From Kitasatospora cheerisanensis KCTC 2395 (GTDB lineage Bacteria; Actinomycetota; Actinomycetes; Streptomycetales; Streptomycetaceae): a stretch of DNA of 64,000 nt. Below the pieces are notes generated by a model, which ran no database searches, was not told where the DNA came from, and saw only the letters and a program-made list of their open reading frames with translations. Below, one piece after another: positions 8,787 through 15,584 of this stretch. Within the stretch, counting starts at the first letter, position 1; every line of letters begins with the position of its first letter. The DNA is taken from contig NZ_KK853997.1 of assembly GCF_000696185.1 (NCBI RefSeq), positions 6,739,245 to 6,803,244 on the forward strand, written 5' to 3'. The position numbers and the translations under genes were made by a program.

Positions 8787-9560
8787 TCAGCGCTCGTCCG
8801 GGGGCAGCAGGAGGACGCCGAGGGCCTGGGCGCAGGTCCGGGCGAGGGAGAGGGTGTGGGGGAGGGTCTCGGCGGTGAGGTGGGCCGGGGTGGAGCGGAT
8901 GGCGAGGGCGAAGCGGGCGGTCGGGGTGCGGTCGAGCACGGGGACGGCGAGGGTGCGGACGCCGGGGGCGGACTCGCCGTCGTTGAGGGCGTAGCCGCGG
9001 CGCCGGGTGAGGGCGAGTTCGGTGTCCAGGACGGCCGGGTCGGTCAGGGTGCGGTCGGTGAAGGCGTCGAGCGGGCCGGTCAGCGGGCTGTCGGCGGGGG
9101 AGGGCCAGGCGAGCAGCACCTTGCCGAGCGCGGTGGAGTGCAGCGGGCGGCGCAGGCCGAGGCCGGTGGAGGGCAGCACGGAGCCGCCGACCAGGATGAC
9201 GGCGTGCGGGCCGGAGCGGATGGCGAGGTCGGCGGTGGCACCGCTGCGGCGGGCGAGCTGCTCGAGTTCGGGGCCGGCCAGGTGCAGTCCGCGCTGGTGG
9301 AAGGTGAGTTGGCCGAGTTCGGCGACGGCCGGGCCGAGCCGGTAGCGGGCGGTGCGCTCGTCCTGGTCGAGGAAGCCGGTGGCGAGCAGGGTACGGGCCA
9401 GGCGGTGCGCGGTGGAGACGGACAGGCCCATCCGGCGGGCGAGTTCGGAGGCGCTGAGGTCGGGCCCGTTGTCGTGGAAGCAGTGCAGCAGGCCGAGGGC
9501 CCGGTGCACCGCCTGGGCGCCGGCCGGCGGTGACTGCAGGGTTCCGGGGCTGGCGGGCAT
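8787..9560 (-). CDS. IclR-family transcriptional regulator
   Basis: A 257-residue IclR regulator. Residues 15-75 carry the winged helix (ASELARRMGLSVSTAHRLAR), followed by the IclR effector-binding domain with LHSTALGKVLLAW and RRRGYALNDGESAPGVRTLA. The ATG at 9560 was preferred because AAGAGG lies six bases upstream; a GTG at 9584 is also in frame. It is divergent from the organosulfur operon that begins with the upstream ORF at 9799, so it may regulate that operon. No sulfur-specific feature is visible in its effector domain. Confidence 0.88.
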   Translation of the reverse strand: MPASPGTLQSPPAGAQAVHRALGLLHCFHDNGPDLSASELARRMGLSVSTAHRLARTLLATGFLDQDERTARYRLGPAVAELGQLTFHQRGLHLAGPELEQLARRSGATADLAIRSGPHAVILVGGSVLPSTGLGLRRPLHSTALGKVLLAWPSPADSPLTGPLDAFTDRTLTDPAVLDTELALTRRRGYALNDGESAPGVRTLAVPVLDRTPTARFALAIRSTPAHLTAETLPHTLSLARTCAQALGVLLLPPDER

Positions 9561-9798
9561 CGCACCTCTTCGGGAGTCGCTCACAGGCGGTCAACTTCGT
9601 TGGGATTCCCAGGATATGGGGGTGATCGCTGCGGGCGTGTGACGGCGGTGTTGCGGGCGAGCGCCGCACTGTGAACAGCGCGTCCCATCATCTGGCAACG
9701 CTTGATTCGGGCGGCGGCGGCGTGGAACGCTCGGTGCATCGGCGGACGAGCGGCCGACACCGGCGCACACCGCCCGGTCCGACAGGAGGGAGCGCGCC
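9561..9798. other. Divergent intergenic promoter region
   Basis: Together with 9799-9922 this is a 362-bp gap between the IclR gene and the first large gene of the organosulfur operon. The section before the upstream ORF should hold both promoters. I could not assign convincing -35/-10 boxes. A strong ribosome binding site, AGGAGGG at 9784-9790, serves the short ORF at 9799. Confidence 0.5.
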
Positions 9799-9837
9799 GT
9801 GACGATGCACCGGCCCCGCCCCTGCTGTTGTCGCTGA
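9799..9837 (+). CDS. Polycysteine upstream ORF (leader peptide), 12 aa
   Basis: GTG at 9799 lies eight bases after a strong AGGAGGG ribosome binding site and opens a 12-codon frame encoding MTMHRPRPCCCR before TGA at 9835. Three consecutive Cys codons stand next to the stop. Short upstream ORFs ending in Cys runs are known in mycobacteria as cysteine-responsive attenuators placed before sulfur-assimilation genes; here the next gene is the first of an organosulfur operon. When charged Cys-tRNA is scarce, the ribosome should stall on the Cys codons and change the fold of the leader downstream. The coding reading is seen; the regulatory role is inferred. Confidence 0.72.
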   Translation: MTMHRPRPCCCR

Positions 9838-9922
9838 CCGCCGCCCCGAACCCCCTTCCCCGTCGCACGGTTCCCACATGGTGGGCCGCCTGTGCGTTTC
9901 CTGAGATTTCCGGAGCCCCGTC
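9838..9922 (+). promoter_or_regulatory. Leader region with hairpin after the polycysteine ORF
   Basis: Between the short Cys-rich ORF and the start of the DszB-like gene lies a hairpin CCCAC-ATG-GTGGG (9873-9885). It can extend with a weaker outer pair, GCAC at 9865-9868 with GTGC at 9892-9895. The ribosome binding site for the next gene (CGGAG) starts about 15 nt further on. A ribosome stalled on the Cys codons would sit about 40 nt before the hairpin. The region could act as a translational or transcriptional attenuator. Confidence 0.45.
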
Positions 9923-10945
9923 ATGAGCCCCGCATCCACCGCCGACGTCGGCGCGCCCACCCACCCCGACACCCTGTGGTTCACCCGCTGCCCGGTGCCG
10001 ACCGCCACCGGCATCGCCGCCGACCGCGGCTGGCTGGCCGAGGAGTTCGCGCCCGACGGCATCGCCGTCCGCTCGCTGCAGGACGTGCCGCCCGAGGTCG
10101 CGGCCGACCACCACTACACGCACGCACTGACCGGGCTCTTCCGCGAGGGCGGCAACGTGCCCGCGCTGTGGGCCCGTTCGCGCGGCGAGCGGACCCGGCT
10201 GATCGGCCTGACCTGGATCGAGGAGCGCCAGACCGTCCTGGTCCGGGAGGGCAGCGGCATCCGCTCCGCCGCACAGCTGCGCGGCGCCCGGCTCGCGGTG
10301 CCCCGGCACCCGATCGGCATCGACTTCTGGCGCGCGATGGCCCTGGCCGGCCACCACGGCGCCCTGGCCTCCGCCGAACTCACCCTGGACGACGTCGAGT
10401 TGACGGAGGTTGCGGCGGAGCCGGGCGGCGGCCAGTGGGAGGCCGAGCTGACCGCCCTGCGGGACGGCCGGGTGGACGCCGTGTACGTGAAGGGCGCGCT
10501 CGCGGTGGAGGCCGCCCGCCGGTACGGCGCGGTGCCCGCCGTGGAGCTGGACGCGCTCCCCGACCGCCGCCACCGGGTCAACAACGGCACCCCGCGCCCG
10601 ATCACCGTGCACCAGCAACTGCTGGACGAGCACCCCGAGTTGGTGGCCCGCTTCGTCGCTGTGCTGCTGCGCGCCGCGGACTGGGCGGCCGAGCGGCCGG
10701 CCGAGGTGGCGCGGATCCTCGGCGCGGAGACCGGTGCCGGACCGGAGGGCGTGGCCGGCGCGTACGCGGCGGGCGGGCACCGCACCCTGCACCCGGACCT
10801 GTCCGCCGACCGCCTCGACCTGCTCGCCCGGCAGGAGCAGTTCCTGCACGCCCACGGCTTCCTCGCCGACCGGGTCGACGTCCACGCCTGGGCCGACCCC
10901 GCCCCGCTGGCCGCCGCCCGCGCCCTGCTCGCCGCCCGCCCCTGA
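9923..10945 (+). CDS. DszB-like sulfinate desulfinase
   Basis: A 340-residue protein with the type-2 periplasmic-binding-protein fold but no signal peptide, resembling DszB (2-hydroxybiphenyl-2-sulfinate desulfinase). The N-terminus TLWFTRCPVP matches the DszB Cys region, giving Cys23. His64 and Arg74 lie in HYTHALTGLFREGGNVP, with the same ten-residue spacing as DszB His60 and Arg70, and the R-x-G-G-x-[IV]-P turn is kept. DszB cleaves an aryl C-S bond of a sulfinate, releasing sulfite. Conservation of all three catalytic residues supports an enzyme rather than a transport protein. It is the first large gene of the operon and ends 25 bp before the lipoprotein gene. The true substrate is unknown. 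Confidence 0.75.
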   Translation: MSPASTADVGAPTHPDTLWFTRCPVPTATGIAADRGWLAEEFAPDGIAVRSLQDVPPEVAADHHYTHALTGLFREGGNVPALWARSRGERTRLIGLTWIEERQTVLVREGSGIRSAAQLRGARLAVPRHPIGIDFWRAMALAGHHGALASAELTLDDVELTEVAAEPGGGQWEAELTALRDGRVDAVYVKGALAVEAARRYGAVPAVELDALPDRRHRVNNGTPRPITVHQQLLDEHPELVARFVAVLLRAADWAAERPAEVARILGAETGAGPEGVAGAYAAGGHRTLHPDLSADRLDLLARQEQFLHAHGFLADRVDVHAWADPAPLAAARALLAARP

Positions 10946-10970
10946 CCTGCCCTTCCCGTTGGAGAGACCC

Positions 10971-12005
10971 ATGCACACCCCCGCCCGCCGGCCCCTGCTC
11001 GCCGCCACCGCCCTGACCGCCGTCGCCGCGCTCGGCCTGACCGCCTGCGGCTCGACCGCGAAGGACGCCGCCGCCTCCGCCGACGGCAAGGGCGGCGCCG
11101 AGGTGGTGCTGAGAGTGCCCGACCCCGGCAACTCCGGCTTCCTCGCCAAGGGAAAGAAGGACGGCTCGCTCGACCGGGCGCTGGCGGCCGTGCACGCCAA
11201 GGTGGTGTGGACGGGCAGCGCCGGACCGTTCGCCCCCGCCGCGCAGGCCCTGAACGCCGATCAACTGGACGTCGCCCAGGGCTCGATCACCTCCGCGGTG
11301 GCCGCGCTCGCCCAGAAGCCCGGGTTCAAGCTGTTCGCGCAGAGCGCCCCGGACGAGGCCGGCGAAGGCATCCTGGTGAAGAACGGCTCCCCGATCACGA
11401 AGGTCGAGGACCTGGTCGGCCGGAAGGTCGCGGTCTCCCAGGGCGGCACCTCCGAGTACCTGCTGCTGAAGGCCCTCCAGAAGAACGGCATCCCCGCCGA
11501 CCGGGTCCAGCGGGTGTACCTGCGGGCCGACCAGACCTCCGGGGTGTTCAACTCCGGCCAGGTGGACGCCTGGGCGACCTGGGCGACCTTCTCCGTCCCC
11601 GCGATCGCCAACACCGGCGCGCACTTCCTCGTGAACGGCAAGGCCGTCGGCAGCGACAACTACGCCGTGTGGGCCGTGCGTTCGGCCTTCGCCGAGAAGC
11701 ACCCGGAGGTGCTGAAGGCGTTCTACGGCTACCTGCACGAGAACGGCGCGAAGGAGAAGGCCGACCCCGCCGCCTACCTGAACGTCTTCACCGACGCCGG
11801 CCCGACCGCCGTCACCCCCGCCGAGCAGCAGGTCGCCGTCGACTTCGGCCGGCAGCGGGCCGTGGACGCGCCGATCACCGCCGCCGACACCGCCCGGTTC
11901 GACGTGGTCGCCGCGTTCTACGCCGAGCAGGGCGTCACCAAGTCGAAGGTGGACGTCGCCCCGCACCTGATCGACGTCGACTCCCTCGCCGGGGCGGCGG
12001 GATGA
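10971..12005 (+). CDS. ssuA: Sulfonate ABC transporter substrate-binding lipoprotein
   Basis: A 344-residue SsuA/NitT-TauT-type binding protein. The N-terminus is a lipoprotein signal peptide ending in the lipobox LTAC, so the mature protein is anchored outside the membrane by the Cys. The fold signatures are visible: VEDLVGRKVAVSQGGTSEYL and the W-A-T-W motif in GQVDAWATWATFS, typical of aliphatic sulfonate binders. The stop overlaps the permease start by four bases (ATGA). It should capture sulfonates or related organosulfur compounds and deliver them to the permease. Confidence 0.88.
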   Translation: MHTPARRPLLAATALTAVAALGLTACGSTAKDAAASADGKGGAEVVLRVPDPGNSGFLAKGKKDGSLDRALAAVHAKVVWTGSAGPFAPAAQALNADQLDVAQGSITSAVAALAQKPGFKLFAQSAPDEAGEGILVKNGSPITKVEDLVGRKVAVSQGGTSEYLLLKALQKNGIPADRVQRVYLRADQTSGVFNSGQVDAWATWATFSVPAIANTGAHFLVNGKAVGSDNYAVWAVRSAFAEKHPEVLKAFYGYLHENGAKEKADPAAYLNVFTDAGPTAVTPAEQQVAVDFGRQRAVDAPITAADTARFDVVAAFYAEQGVTKSKVDVAPHLIDVDSLAGAAG

Positions 12006-12853
12006 GCGCCGTCAGCACCGAGCAGGCGCGGGCCGCCGGGCTGGTCGCCCCGCGCGCCCGGGCCGCCGCCGGCCGGCCGCGCGGCGTCTCGCTCGCCCTG
12101 CGCACCCTCGGCCCGCTCGCCCTGCTCGCCGCCTGGCAGATCTCCTCCGCGACCGGCGTGCTGACCCCCGACGTGCTCGCCTCGCCCGGCCAAGTGGTCC
12201 AGGCCGTCGGCGAGTTGTGGGGCAACGGACAGCTGGCCGACGCGCTGTCCACCTCGCTCACCCGGGCCGCCCTCGGCCTGCTGTTCGGAGCCGGTGCCGG
12301 ACTGGTGCTCGGCGTGGTCACCGGATTCTTCCGGCTCGGCGAGGAACTGCTCGACTCCGCCGTCCAAGTGCTGCGCACCGTCCCGTTCCTGGCACTGGTG
12401 CCGCTGTTCATGGTCTGGTTCGGCATCACCGAGACCGCGAAGATCGCCCTGATCGGCGTGGCCACCTCCTTCCCGATGTACGTGTCCGCCTCCGGCGGCG
12501 TCCGCAACACCGACCGCAAGCTGGTCGAGGCGATGCGCAGCTTCGGACTCTCCCGCGCCGCGGTGGTCCGCGAGGTCGTGCTGCCCGGCGCGCTGCCCGC
12601 CCTGCTGTCCGGGCTGCGGCTGTCGATGACGCTCAGCGTGATCGCGCTGATCGCCGCCGAGGAGATCAACTCCACCGAGGGGATCGGCTACTTGATGGCC
12701 CAGGCGCAGAACTTCTCCCGCACCGACGTGCTCGCCGTGTGCATCCTGATCTACGGCCTGCTCGGCCTGGCCGCCGACGGCGCGGTGCGCGTGCTGGAAC
12801 GGCTGCTGATGCCCTGGCGGCCCGTCGACGGACGGGCGGTGGCCGGACGATGA
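12002..12853 (+). CDS. ssuC: Sulfonate ABC transporter permease
   Basis: A 283-residue permease of the SsuC/TauC type with about six membrane helices. The ATPase-coupling EAA loop is seen as EAMRSFGLSRAAVVREVVLPGALPALLSGLR. The conserved VRTVPFLALVPLFMVWFGI-like helix comes before it. It overlaps the genes on both sides by four bases, so importer subunits are translationally coupled. It pairs with the ATPase encoded next and the upstream lipoprotein. Confidence 0.9.
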   Translation: MSAVSTEQARAAGLVAPRARAAAGRPRGVSLALRTLGPLALLAAWQISSATGVLTPDVLASPGQVVQAVGELWGNGQLADALSTSLTRAALGLLFGAGAGLVLGVVTGFFRLGEELLDSAVQVLRTVPFLALVPLFMVWFGITETAKIALIGVATSFPMYVSASGGVRNTDRKLVEAMRSFGLSRAAVVREVVLPGALPALLSGLRLSMTLSVIALIAAEEINSTEGIGYLMAQAQNFSRTDVLAVCILIYGLLGLAADGAVRVLERLLMPWRPVDGRAVAGR

Positions 12854-13575
12854 GCACTCCCGCCGTCCACGTCCGGGGCCTGCGACGGGTGTTCGGCACC
12901 CGCGCCGTCCTGGACGGCATCGACCTGGACATCGCCCGCGGCGAGTTCCTCGCCCTGCTCGGCGCGTCCGGCACCGGCAAGACCACCCTGCTGCGGATCC
13001 TCGGCGCACTCGACCGCGCCGACGAAGGCACCGTCCTGGTGCCGCCCGCCCGGACGGTCGTCTTCCAGGAACCCCGGCTGATCCCGTCCCGGCGCGTCCT
13101 CGGCAACGTCACCGTCGGCCTGCCGCGCGGCGCCGCCACCCGGGAGACCGGCCGGCGGGCCCTCGCCGAGGTCGGCCTCGCCGCGCACGCCGACGCCTGG
13201 CCCGCCACCCTGTCCGGCGGCGAGGCACAGCGCGCCGCCCTCGCCCGCGCCCTCGTTCGCGAACCCGAACTGCTGCTGCTCGACGAGCCGTTCGCCGCCC
13301 TGGACGCACTCACCCGGCTGCGCATGCAGGACCTGGTCGGCGACCTGTGCCGCCGCCACCGCCCCGCCGTGCTGCTGGTCACCCACGACGTGGACGAGGC
13401 GATCCGGCTCGCCGACCGGGTCGCCGTGCTGCGCGACGGCGCCCTCGTCCGCGACCAGTCGGTGGCCGTCGAGCACCCCCGCGACCCCGCCGACCCCGCG
13501 TTCGCCGCCCTGCGCCGCGCCCTGCTCGCCGACCTCGGCGTGCACCGCGAACCCGCACCGCAGCACGCCAACTGA
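12850..13575 (+). CDS. ssuB: Sulfonate ABC transporter ATP-binding protein
   Basis: A 241-residue ABC ATPase. Walker A is GASGTGKTT near residue 39, the Q loop is VVFQEPRL, the signature is LSGGEAQR, Walker B is LLLLDEPFAALD, and the switch His is in LLVTHDVDEA. The sequence is closest in style to SsuB/TauB. It powers the permease encoded just upstream, whose stop codon overlaps its start. A 27-bp gap separates it from the next gene of the operon. Confidence 0.92.
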   Translation: MSTPAVHVRGLRRVFGTRAVLDGIDLDIARGEFLALLGASGTGKTTLLRILGALDRADEGTVLVPPARTVVFQEPRLIPSRRVLGNVTVGLPRGAATRETGRRALAEVGLAAHADAWPATLSGGEAQRAALARALVREPELLLLDEPFAALDALTRLRMQDLVGDLCRRHRPAVLLVTHDVDEAIRLADRVAVLRDGALVRDQSVAVEHPRDPADPAFAALRRALLADLGVHREPAPQHAN

Positions 13576-13602
13576 CCGACACCCAGCCGAAGAGAGAACG
13601 CC

Positions 13603-14511
13603 ATGACCATCACCGTGGGCGTGCACCGCTCCAACCCGTCCCTGTACCACCTGGCCCGACTCGACTACCTCCAGCAGGAGTTGGCGCCGCTCGGCGAGAG
13701 CGCCGCGTTCCACCACTACACCGACGGCACCAGGACCGGCGGCTACCTCGCCGACGGCACCATCGACTTCGGCGGCACCGGCTCCACCCCGCCGATCACC
13801 GCGCAGGCCGCCGGACACGACATCGTGTACACCGCCGTCTCCGCGCCCCGGCCCGACCACGGGGCGCTGCTGGTCGCCGCCGACGGGCCGATCGCCTCCG
13901 TCGCCGACCTGAAGGGCACCACCGTGGTGCTCGGCATCGGCTCCTGGCAGACCCACCTGCTCGCCAAGGCCCTGCACCAGCAAGGGCTTTCGTACCGCGA
14001 CGACATCGCCGCCGAGCGCCCCGCCGGGGACGAGGCCGAGCGGCTGGCCGACGGCCGGATCGCCGGCTGGATCGCCCAGGGCGCCGAACTCGCCGCTGCC
14101 CGCCGCACCGGGAACTTCCGCGAACTGATCCGCACCGGCGACGTCATCACCGACCGCTCGGTGTTCTTCGCCCGCCGCGAACTCGCCGTCCAGCGGCCCG
14201 AGATCGTCGCGGCCATCGTCACCGCCCTGCAGCGCGCCGACCACTGGGCCGCCGCCCACCCCGAGGAGGCCGCCGCCCTCGCCGCCGCCGACCAGGGCGG
14301 CGAGGCCGCCGACTGGCACACCGCGCTCACCGCGCTGCCCTGGCAACTGGAGCCCGCCACCGCCGAGTTCGTCGCCGAACAGCAGGAGGCCGCGGACATC
14401 TTCCACCGGGTCGGCTTCATCGACCGCCCCGTCACCGTCGCCGACATCCACCTGCCCGCCCTGGAGCAGCCCGTCGCCGACGCCGTCTCCCGCGCCACGA
14501 AGGAACACTGA
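13603..14511 (+). CDS. SsuA-like binding-fold protein without signal peptide
   Basis: A 302-residue protein with the SsuA/TauA-type fold: GTIDFGGTGSTPPITAQAAG, then DLKGTTVVLGIGSWQTHLLA. It begins directly with strand 1 (MTITVGVHRSNPSLYHLARL), so it has no signal peptide or lipobox and should be cytoplasmic unless exported otherwise. It lies between the importer genes and the monooxygenase. Possible roles are an intracellular substrate carrier or a second enzyme recruited from the binding-protein fold, like the DszB-like protein at the other end. It lacks the Cys-Pro-Val-Pro motif, so it is not a DszB-type desulfinase. Confidence 0.7.
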   Translation: MTITVGVHRSNPSLYHLARLDYLQQELAPLGESAAFHHYTDGTRTGGYLADGTIDFGGTGSTPPITAQAAGHDIVYTAVSAPRPDHGALLVAADGPIASVADLKGTTVVLGIGSWQTHLLAKALHQQGLSYRDDIAAERPAGDEAERLADGRIAGWIAQGAELAAARRTGNFRELIRTGDVITDRSVFFARRELAVQRPEIVAAIVTALQRADHWAAAHPEEAAALAAADQGGEAADWHTALTALPWQLEPATAEFVAEQQEAADIFHRVGFIDRPVTVADIHLPALEQPVADAVSRATKEH

Positions 14512-14516
14512 GCACC

Positions 14517-15584
14517 ATGGCCACCGAAGTCCTCTGGTACCTGATCCCCCGCGAGGGCCACTACCCGTGGGAGCCCGAAGGCCGCCGCCCCGTCGACCTC
14601 GGCTACCTCCAGCACCTCGCCGCCACCGTCGAACGGCTCGGCTACACCGGCGCACTGCTCGCCACCGACCAGTACGACGTGTGGACGCTCGGCTCCGCGC
14701 TCGCCGCCGCCACCGGCCCCGGCTTCCAGCCCCTGCTCGCCGTCCACCCCGGACTGGTCTCGCCCACCCTGCTCGCCAAGATGGCGCTCAGCTTCGAGCA
14801 CCTGCACGGCCCCGGCCGGCTCCGCTTCAACGTGGTCAACGGCTCCACCGGGCAGCTGCGCGAGTACGGCCTGCACGTCGAGCACGACGACCGCTACCGG
14901 CTGTCCGCCGAGTACTGGAGCCTGGTCAAGCGCCTCACCAGCGGCGAAGTCTTCGACCACGAGGGCGAGTTCTTCCAGCTGAAGAACGCCGGCGCCTCGC
15001 TCCGCGACCTGCCGCCGCTGCGCGAGGGACACATCCCGCTCTGGTTCGGCGGCTCCTCGCCGGCCGGCATCGAGGTCGCCGCCGAACACGTCGACGTGTA
15101 CCTCACCTGGGGCGAACCCCCGCACCTGCTCAAGGAGAAGCTCGCCCTGGTCCGCGAACGCGCCGCCGCGCACGGCCGCACCCTGCGGCTCGGCCTGCGG
15201 CTGCACCTGATCGTCCGCGACACCGAGGAACAGGCCTGGGCCGCCGCCGACCGCCTCCTCGACGTCACCAGCCAGGCCACCTACGCCCGCCAGCTCGGCG
15301 GACGGCAGGGCGAGGACGGCGTCGGCTGGCAGCGGCAGTTCCGCCAGCACGGCGGCCGGGTTCCGGCCCGGGCCCGCGAACTGGAGACCCACCCCAACCT
15401 GTGGCCCGGCATGAGCCTGTTCCGGCCGGGCCCCGGCACCGCCGTCGTCGGCTCCACCGAGCAGGTCGTCGAACGGCTCCGGGAGTTCCAGGACCTCGGC
15501 GTCGACACCTTCATCCTGTCCGGCAACCCGCTGCTGGAGGAGGCCTACCGGGTCGCCGAGACCGTGCTGCCGCAGCTGCGCTGA
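14517..15584 (+). CDS. ssuD: FMNH2-dependent alkanesulfonate monooxygenase (SsuD-like)
   Basis: A 355-residue bacterial-luciferase-like flavin monooxygenase. It matches SsuD along its length: GHYPWEPEGRRPVDLGYLQ at the N-terminus, RLRFNVVNGSTGQL, the LWFGGSS strand, the diagnostic DVYLTWGEPPHLLKEKL, and a C-terminus LSGNPLLEEAYRV. SsuD uses reduced FMN and oxygen to cleave a C-S bond of alkanesulfonates, giving sulfite and an aldehyde. No flavin reductase partner (SsuE-like) is in the operon, so FMNH2 must come from elsewhere. It is the last gene before the terminator at 15588. Confidence 0.9.
   Translation: MATEVLWYLIPREGHYPWEPEGRRPVDLGYLQHLAATVERLGYTGALLATDQYDVWTLGSALAAATGPGFQPLLAVHPGLVSPTLLAKMALSFEHLHGPGRLRFNVVNGSTGQLREYGLHVEHDDRYRLSAEYWSLVKRLTSGEVFDHEGEFFQLKNAGASLRDLPPLREGHIPLWFGGSSPAGIEVAAEHVDVYLTWGEPPHLLKEKLALVRERAAAHGRTLRLGLRLHLIVRDTEEQAWAAADRLLDVTSQATYARQLGGRQGEDGVGWQRQFRQHGGRVPARARELETHPNLWPGMSLFRPGPGTAVVGSTEQVVERLREFQDLGVDTFILSGNPLLEEAYRVAETVLPQLR

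Follow-up and report, generated by a model that had tools for sequence, protein, structure and literature searches.

A putative cysteine-sensing leader, conserved in Streptomycetaceae, ahead of a DszB-like/SsuD operon in Kitasatospora cheerisanensis

Introduction

Do the cysteine codons at the end of a very short open reading frame (ORF) ahead of an organosulfur operon in Kitasatospora cheerisanensis KCTC 2395 sense the supply of cysteine? Leaders with cysteine codons in front of sulfur genes are already known from Mycobacterium, Propionibacterium and Bifidobacterium (PMC1262725, PMC4633059). For instance, candidate cys leader peptides have been described in Mycobacterium, P. acnes and B. longum (Seliverstov 2005; PMC1262725). 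Moreover, later accounts present poly-cysteine leaderless small ORFs of mycobacteria as cysteine-responsive attenuators (Canestrari et al. 2020, Mol Microbiol 114:93; PMC13236596, PMC9031893, PMC9094748). Here, a 64,000-nucleotide stretch of the K. cheerisanensis genome (the window) was analysed, for which a preliminary description had proposed a cysteine attenuator composed of a 12-codon ORF and a hairpin.

The leader ORF and the operon downstream

The leader ORF, MTMHRPRPCCCR followed by a stop codon, covers positions 9799 to 9837 of the forward strand and consists of 12 codons and a TGA stop (GTG ACG ATG CAC CGG CCC CGC CCC TGC TGT TGT CGC TGA). It starts with GTG (9799-9801) and ends in the putative sensing segment TGC TGT TGT CGC TGA (9823-9837, forward strand). 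The three consecutive Cys codons near the stop (TGC, 9823-9825; TGT, 9826-9828; TGT, 9829-9831), which recall the mycobacterial poly-cysteine attenuators, are followed by the Arg codon CGC (9832-9834) and the stop codon (9835-9837). A Shine-Dalgarno (SD) sequence, AGGAGGGAG, can be read directly at 9784-9792 of the same strand, in a region that is conserved. When the intergenic region (9585-9922) was shuffled with its dinucleotides preserved, an SD-led ORF of 8-45 codons with CCC near its end never arose in 20,000 shuffles, and one with CC arose in 13 of 20,000. Moreover, the combination of SD, short ORF and CCC occurs only once in the window when both strands are scanned. Thus, the ORF with its Cys run behind a strong ribosome-binding site is exactly as it had been described.

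The leader stop codon is separated by 85 nt from the start codon (9923) of an operon of six genes, which extends from 9923 to 15584 on the forward strand. The first gene (9923-10945), whose ribosome-binding site GGAG is read directly at 9912-9915 of the same strand, encodes a DszB-like protein with the NMT1/SsuA fold (Pfam NMT1). A phmmer search against the PDB matched it to 2de2 (E 3.7e-17), which is DszB, the desulfinase of dibenzothiophene desulfurisation. The second gene (10971-12005) encodes a substrate-binding lipoprotein of an ABC transporter; it had no match in Pfam or NCBIfam, and its counterpart in Streptomyces sp. SAT1 is annotated as a member of the NrtA/SsuA/CpmA family. Pfam and NCBIfam profiles assign the remaining genes to an SsuC-like ABC permease (12002-12853), an SsuB-like ABC ATPase (12850-13575), an SsuA-like substrate-binding protein (13603-14511) and an SsuD-like FMNH2-dependent alkanesulfonate monooxygenase (14511-15584). 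With a DszB homologue encoded by the first gene and an SsuD-like enzyme by the last, the earlier identification of a DszB-like/SsuD operon was correct.

A divergently oriented gene (8787-9584, reverse strand) encodes an IclR-family regulator (Pfam IclR_C and HTH_IclR), which is likely to exert a second, protein-based control of the operon. Streptomyces sp. SAT1 has the identical gene order, including the IclR gene. Between the regulator gene and the leader, positions 9672-9731 of the window contain the strongly conserved sequence TGAACA...TCCCATCATCTGGCAA..CTTG...TGGAACGCTC, a candidate IclR operator and promoter. Alignment of Kitasatospora orthologs delimits a block, TGAACA...TCCCATCATCTGGCAACGCTTGAT (9672-9706, forward strand), which probably represents the operator and the -35 region of the operon promoter. 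The candidate promoter itself (9701-9731, forward strand) would combine a CTTGAT-like -35 with an AACGCT-like -10 element in the conserved TGGAACGCTC; no match to the sigma-70 consensus was found there. The alignment shows that the promoter block is conserved in the Kitasatospora orthologs, including those that have no leader. As this candidate promoter would place the transcription start about 60 nt before the leader, the latter is presumably not leaderless.

Conservation of the leader in orthologous operons

Orthologs of the first operon gene were surveyed at 27 loci from genome contigs and, in a second survey, in 396 genomes of the family, of which 67 had a match; 65 of these are close orthologs with about 69% identity or more. 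The host genus is Kitasatospora-like, the closest named orthologs being about 90% identical. The upstream DNA was searched for SD-led short ORFs with a Cys codon near the stop. Such an ORF, with a Cys codon adjoining TGA or a few codons before it, is present at 60 of the 65 Streptomycetaceae orthologs. In Kitasatospora, the leaders have 12 codons (VKTHRCHSSCCR, VTTARPLPRCCR and VNTVRQCPCCCC, each followed by a stop codon), 14 codons (VTTHRCPAPCVCCR and VTSHRCLPSRACCR, likewise) or 20 codons (VTTHRCSALPAIRVRRTCCL-stop). In other genera, a long leader ending in RRHIDLARVSSAACR-stop occupies the matching position, for example MTTTRLLIPVLPTLVTRRHIDLARVSSTGCR-stop; the long leader is also present at locus L132. 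The leader length changes by whole codons only, from 12, 14 and 20 to the 31-43 codons of the long form, and the number of Cys codons varies from one to five across the approximately 60 aligned natural variants. Most Kitasatospora leaders have CC or C-x-C-C, and most of those from other genera have one Cys codon, followed by Arg and the stop; CC or CCC endings occur outside Kitasatospora as well (L148, L151, L155). The comparison with relatives, which had been named as a check on the proposal, thus shows that one or more Cys codons near the stop have been kept in spite of the drift of the remaining peptide and of both flanks. However, the run itself, which had been expected to be conserved, is not invariant, since CCC is restricted to a few genomes.

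The conserved part is sharply delimited. In the 12- and 14-codon groups, the mean pairwise identity of the SD and the ORF amounts to 0.74-0.95 per site class, as compared to 0.40-0.56 in the flanks; the SD region alone shows 0.79-0.87 against 0.40-0.56 further upstream, and conservation drops one base past the stop codon. The element TGTTGTCGCTGA is nearly invariant in Kitasatospora, and the last 12 nt show a pairwise identity of 0.95-0.96. In both groups, the third codon positions of the leader are no freer than the others, which suggests that the constraint acts partly on the codons or the RNA. Furthermore, TGT serves as the last Cys codon in 56 of the 60 distinct leader neighbourhoods and TGA as the stop codon in all 60, counts that reflect shared ancestry and not independent events. 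CGC-TGA is nearly invariant. TGT is rare in the host: two samples of host genes contain 32 and 83 Cys codons, of which 2 and 7, respectively, are TGT. Judged by these alignments, selection has maintained the leader ORF, its SD sequence and its Cys-containing end in front of the operon.

The Cys leader is lacking at five of the 65 orthologs, namely at four Kitasatospora loci (L119, L121, L128, L131) and at L154. The four Kitasatospora loci form one branch in the tree, in which the operon and the promoter block were kept and the Cys leader was lost; they thus provide a natural control group. At L131, an SD-led ORF with a single internal Cys codon is still there. Since these related bacteria keep the operon, the leader must be dispensable. 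Upstream searches at seven loci of Nonomuraea, Microbispora and Spongiactinospora revealed no leader, and none was found upstream of more distant homologues (55-60% identity). When 149 genomes of the order were searched for the pattern of the short form, nothing convincing emerged outside the host, the other matches being judged on the matched string only. Two Sphingomonas also had no SD-led leader. In these (L023/L024), a short ORF, GTGAAAACTCACCAATATTGCTGCTGA (VKTHQYCC-stop), which lies 134 nt before the DszB-like gene, resembles VKTHRCHSSCCR-stop; as it has no SD and is seen in two near-identical sequences, the resemblance is probably due to chance.

Relation to known leader families

Two NCBIfam families describe leaders of this kind, NF042934 (cis_reg_atten, putative leader peptide; cut-off 27 bits) and NF042936 (Ms4527A family Cys-rich leader peptide; cut-off 45 bits), and scoring needs at least 20 amino acids. 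The long orthologous leaders of the Streptacidiphilus and Streptomyces type score about 26-33 bits against these families, and three of the four that were scored reach the NF042934 cut-off. The orthologs share with the families the SD sequence, a Cys codon adjoining the stop and the TGTCGCTGA ending. In contrast, the leader of the window consists of 12 codons without the R-x-H-[IV]-D-L core and does not reach the scoring length. Neither the 20-amino-acid Kitasatospora relatives nor a 26-amino-acid join of the short leaders of two relatives matched NF042934 or NF042936. Because it lacks the core and is too short to score, the window peptide is not filed as a sequence member of either family. 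It is encoded, however, by a short ORF with Cys in its last few codons, located ahead of a sulfur operon exactly where the orthologs carry the family; by position, it appears as a shortened poly-Cys counterpart of these leaders. The preliminary description had regarded a leader of this kind as not commonly annotated. Its novelty was overstated in view of the known Cys leaders and families, and what stands is that the form of 12-14 codons, and only this form, falls below annotation and escapes it. The long leader of Streptomyces sp. SAT1 is recorded, as a 'hypothetical protein' only.

A tree of the downstream protein has long-form leaders on either side of its midpoint. Poly-Cys endings are seen in Kitasatospora and, at separate places in the tree, in G046, G333 and G059. 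As the root merely serves the drawing and the deep forks are weak (78/75), any direction of change is a matter of interpretation. It is conceivable, although our confidence in this is rather low, that a leader acting through its conserved peptide core (RRHIDLARV...CR-stop) once occupied this site and gave way, with the promoter unchanged, to a reduced leader consisting of little more than the poly-Cys codon run; Cys enrichment would also have arisen elsewhere (G046, G333, G059). If so, the orthologs would form a natural series in which cysteine sensing shifts between a design based on the peptide and one based purely on the codon run.

Several other systems invite comparison. Like the window ORF, the short ORFs of the mycobacterial poly-Cys attenuators end in successive Cys codons and precede sulfur or cysteine genes (PMC13236596, PMC9031893, PMC9094748). 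Unlike these leaderless ORFs, the window ORF has a strong conserved SD, is probably preceded by about 60 nt of untranslated RNA and has an organosulfur target. The leaders of Seliverstov (2005) share with it the Cys run near the stop and the absence of a terminator, and Rho was proposed for them; the cysteine section of that paper names neither Streptomyces or Kitasatospora nor sulfonate or Dsz-type operons (PMC1262725). The uORFC-8-2 motif upstream of cysS in Rhodobacterales is akin to the window leader in having two tandem Cys codons in an upstream ORF, but it has conserved stems and an intrinsic terminator, and its dominant Cys codon is UGC, that of the window family UGU (PMC8632094). The metL leader ahead of metNIQ in S. 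lividans is likewise a short actinobacterial leader with Cys near its end and a sulfur amino acid transporter downstream; it has been interpreted as methionine-dependent and described as leaderless, unlike the window leader (PMC8079986). Cysteine-leader control, described for cysteine biosynthesis in mycobacteria, would extend to the scavenging of organosulfur compounds in Kitasatospora. Moreover, the approximately 60 natural variants of one leader before one operon, which range from 12 to 43 codons and either have or lack the HIDL core, constitute an aligned set. It could reveal where the sensing part lies in the NF042934 leaders, which are known but unexplained.

Proposed mechanism and alternatives

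We consider it probable, on comparative grounds, that the 12-codon ORF is translated and acts in cis as a sensor of charged tRNA-Cys, and that the operon is expressed when Cys-tRNA is short. A ribosome would load at the strong SD and arrive at TGC-TGT-TGT-CGC-TGA. With sufficient cysteine, it would complete the leader and depart, and expression of the DszB/Ssu operon would be held low. With scarce Cys-tRNA, it would stall on the Cys codons just before the stop, the operon would be expressed and sulfur could be drawn from organosulfur compounds. Stalling at the Cys codons is likely; the translation of the leader, stalling as the signal and the direction of the response are what we infer from the sequence. 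The single Cys codon in most orthologs outside Kitasatospora counts against a simple run-of-codons sensor. Of the attenuator as first proposed, the real and selected SD-led leader with Cys near the stop stands; the hairpin and the invariant Cys run do not.

The relay could be Rho-dependent termination in the C-rich spacer, which would be lifted while the stalled ribosome protects the RNA. The spacer between the leader stop and the operon start (9838-9922, forward strand) is rich in C and poorer in G (C-G excess 0.19) and might serve as a Rho-loading region. The mean excess is 0.25 in the short-leader relatives versus 0.05 +/- 0.13 in 105 control upstream regions, the window's own value being unremarkable, as 14% of the controls are equally high. 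The C-rich spacers of the short leaders are compatible with Rho. A proposal of 2005 invoked Rho for the Cys leaders of mycobacteria (PMC1262725), and later summaries report translational control (PMC13236596, PMC9031893).

The latter accounts lend some weight to translational attenuation as in M. smegmatis, in which the leader transcript covers the ribosome-binding site of the operon by pairing with it, until a ribosome stalls at the Cys codons and sets the site free. A CUCC/UUCC stretch can indeed pair with the GGAG of the operon in the 12-codon clade. However, the CUCC/GGAG stem has four pairs only, and pairing between leader and operon SD was no better than with shuffled partners (mean z +0.52 for short and -0.44 for long leaders). 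Pairing between the leader and its own SD showed a weak tendency in the short leaders (mean z -1.1; window z +0.17). Moreover, the spacing from leader stop to operon start ranges from 47 to about 390 nt, a few far ones resting on estimated gene starts. We regard translational unmasking as possible but unlikely, and Rho-dependent termination is favoured because of this variable spacing and because neither a terminator nor a conserved pairing was found.

It could also be the peptide and not the codon run that acts as the sensor, in that the nascent chain, with Cys-Arg before the stop, would act as an arrest peptide, delay termination and perhaps read the thiol or redox state. Such a peptide would suit most orthologs outside Kitasatospora, which combine one Cys with the strongly conserved RRHIDLARV core ending in C-R-stop, and the near-invariance of CGC-TGA. 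The core is absent, however, from the Kitasatospora forms, Arg is replaced by His, Leu or Cys at L108, L125, L127 and L006, where Cys is retained, and the preference for the rare TGT concerns codons and not residues. An arrest peptide thus seems improbable to us.

The preliminary description implied a classical trp-type attenuator with terminator and antiterminator hairpins, and an inverted repeat does exist at 9864-9896 of the forward strand. This repeat has no U-tract, is conserved in the closest relatives only and is not retained in the 14-codon clade. The scan for intrinsic terminators after the leader found no terminator-like site, the folding of leader and spacer does not surpass that of shuffled sequences (z +0.22 and +1.38), and an Rfam search gave no match. 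There are no conserved alternative hairpins, since conservation does not extend past the stop codon; in seven close relatives, the consensus fold is weak, with 2 of 18 pairs covarying. The hairpin as a working part has to be given up, and a trp-type attenuator is very improbable. We give just as little credence to a chance ORF or one kept merely for translational coupling or re-initiation, which would agree with the four Kitasatospora that retain the operon without the leader but not with the shuffles (0 of 20,000), the Cys codon kept near the stop in 60 of 65 orthologs or distances of 47 to about 390 nt to the gene, too far for usual coupling.

Other cysteine leaders in the host genome

The host genome contains related Cys leaders ahead of sulfite reductase (Sir)-CysH, a PLP-fold cysteine-synthase-like gene, a rhodanese gene and two LLM monooxygenase genes. 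Further Cys leaders precede an acyl-CoA-dehydrogenase-like gene and genes for a 2-oxoglutarate oxygenase, a cysteine dioxygenase and a MetN-like ATPase. As most of these targets are sulfur genes, cysteine or sulfur is suggested as the signal. The leader before the cysteine dioxygenase gene (L173; C1:6612830, minus strand), MNPGTFLVCRLHVDLRRQASDMCAC-stop, is under the NF042934 cut-off; its target is catabolic and not one expected of a cysteine-starvation switch, and this family member counts against such a switch.

The pattern TGYTGYCGCTGA has 40 sites in the host genome versus 8 for the reversed pattern. Among the sites that were read, just two leaders other than that of the window looked real, one at C1:1519777 and one at C1:6732661. 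The leader at C1:6732661 (L176; plus strand, about 6.6 kb before the window) is the SD-led MTATVRIAALPALPVLTVRRYIDHGLIYSACCR-stop; no clear sulfur gene lies downstream, and the next ORF matches Trans_reg_C. The leader at C1:1519777 (L175/L089; minus strand), MTTTTTCIPTGATPAGERRMCRRMCCR-stop, is located ahead of the MetN-like gene; it is a homologue of S. lividans metL and has RRMCRRMCCR-stop at its end. As it shares the final TGTTGTCGCTGA with the window leader and contains both Met and Cys codons, it may sense cysteine besides or instead of methionine.
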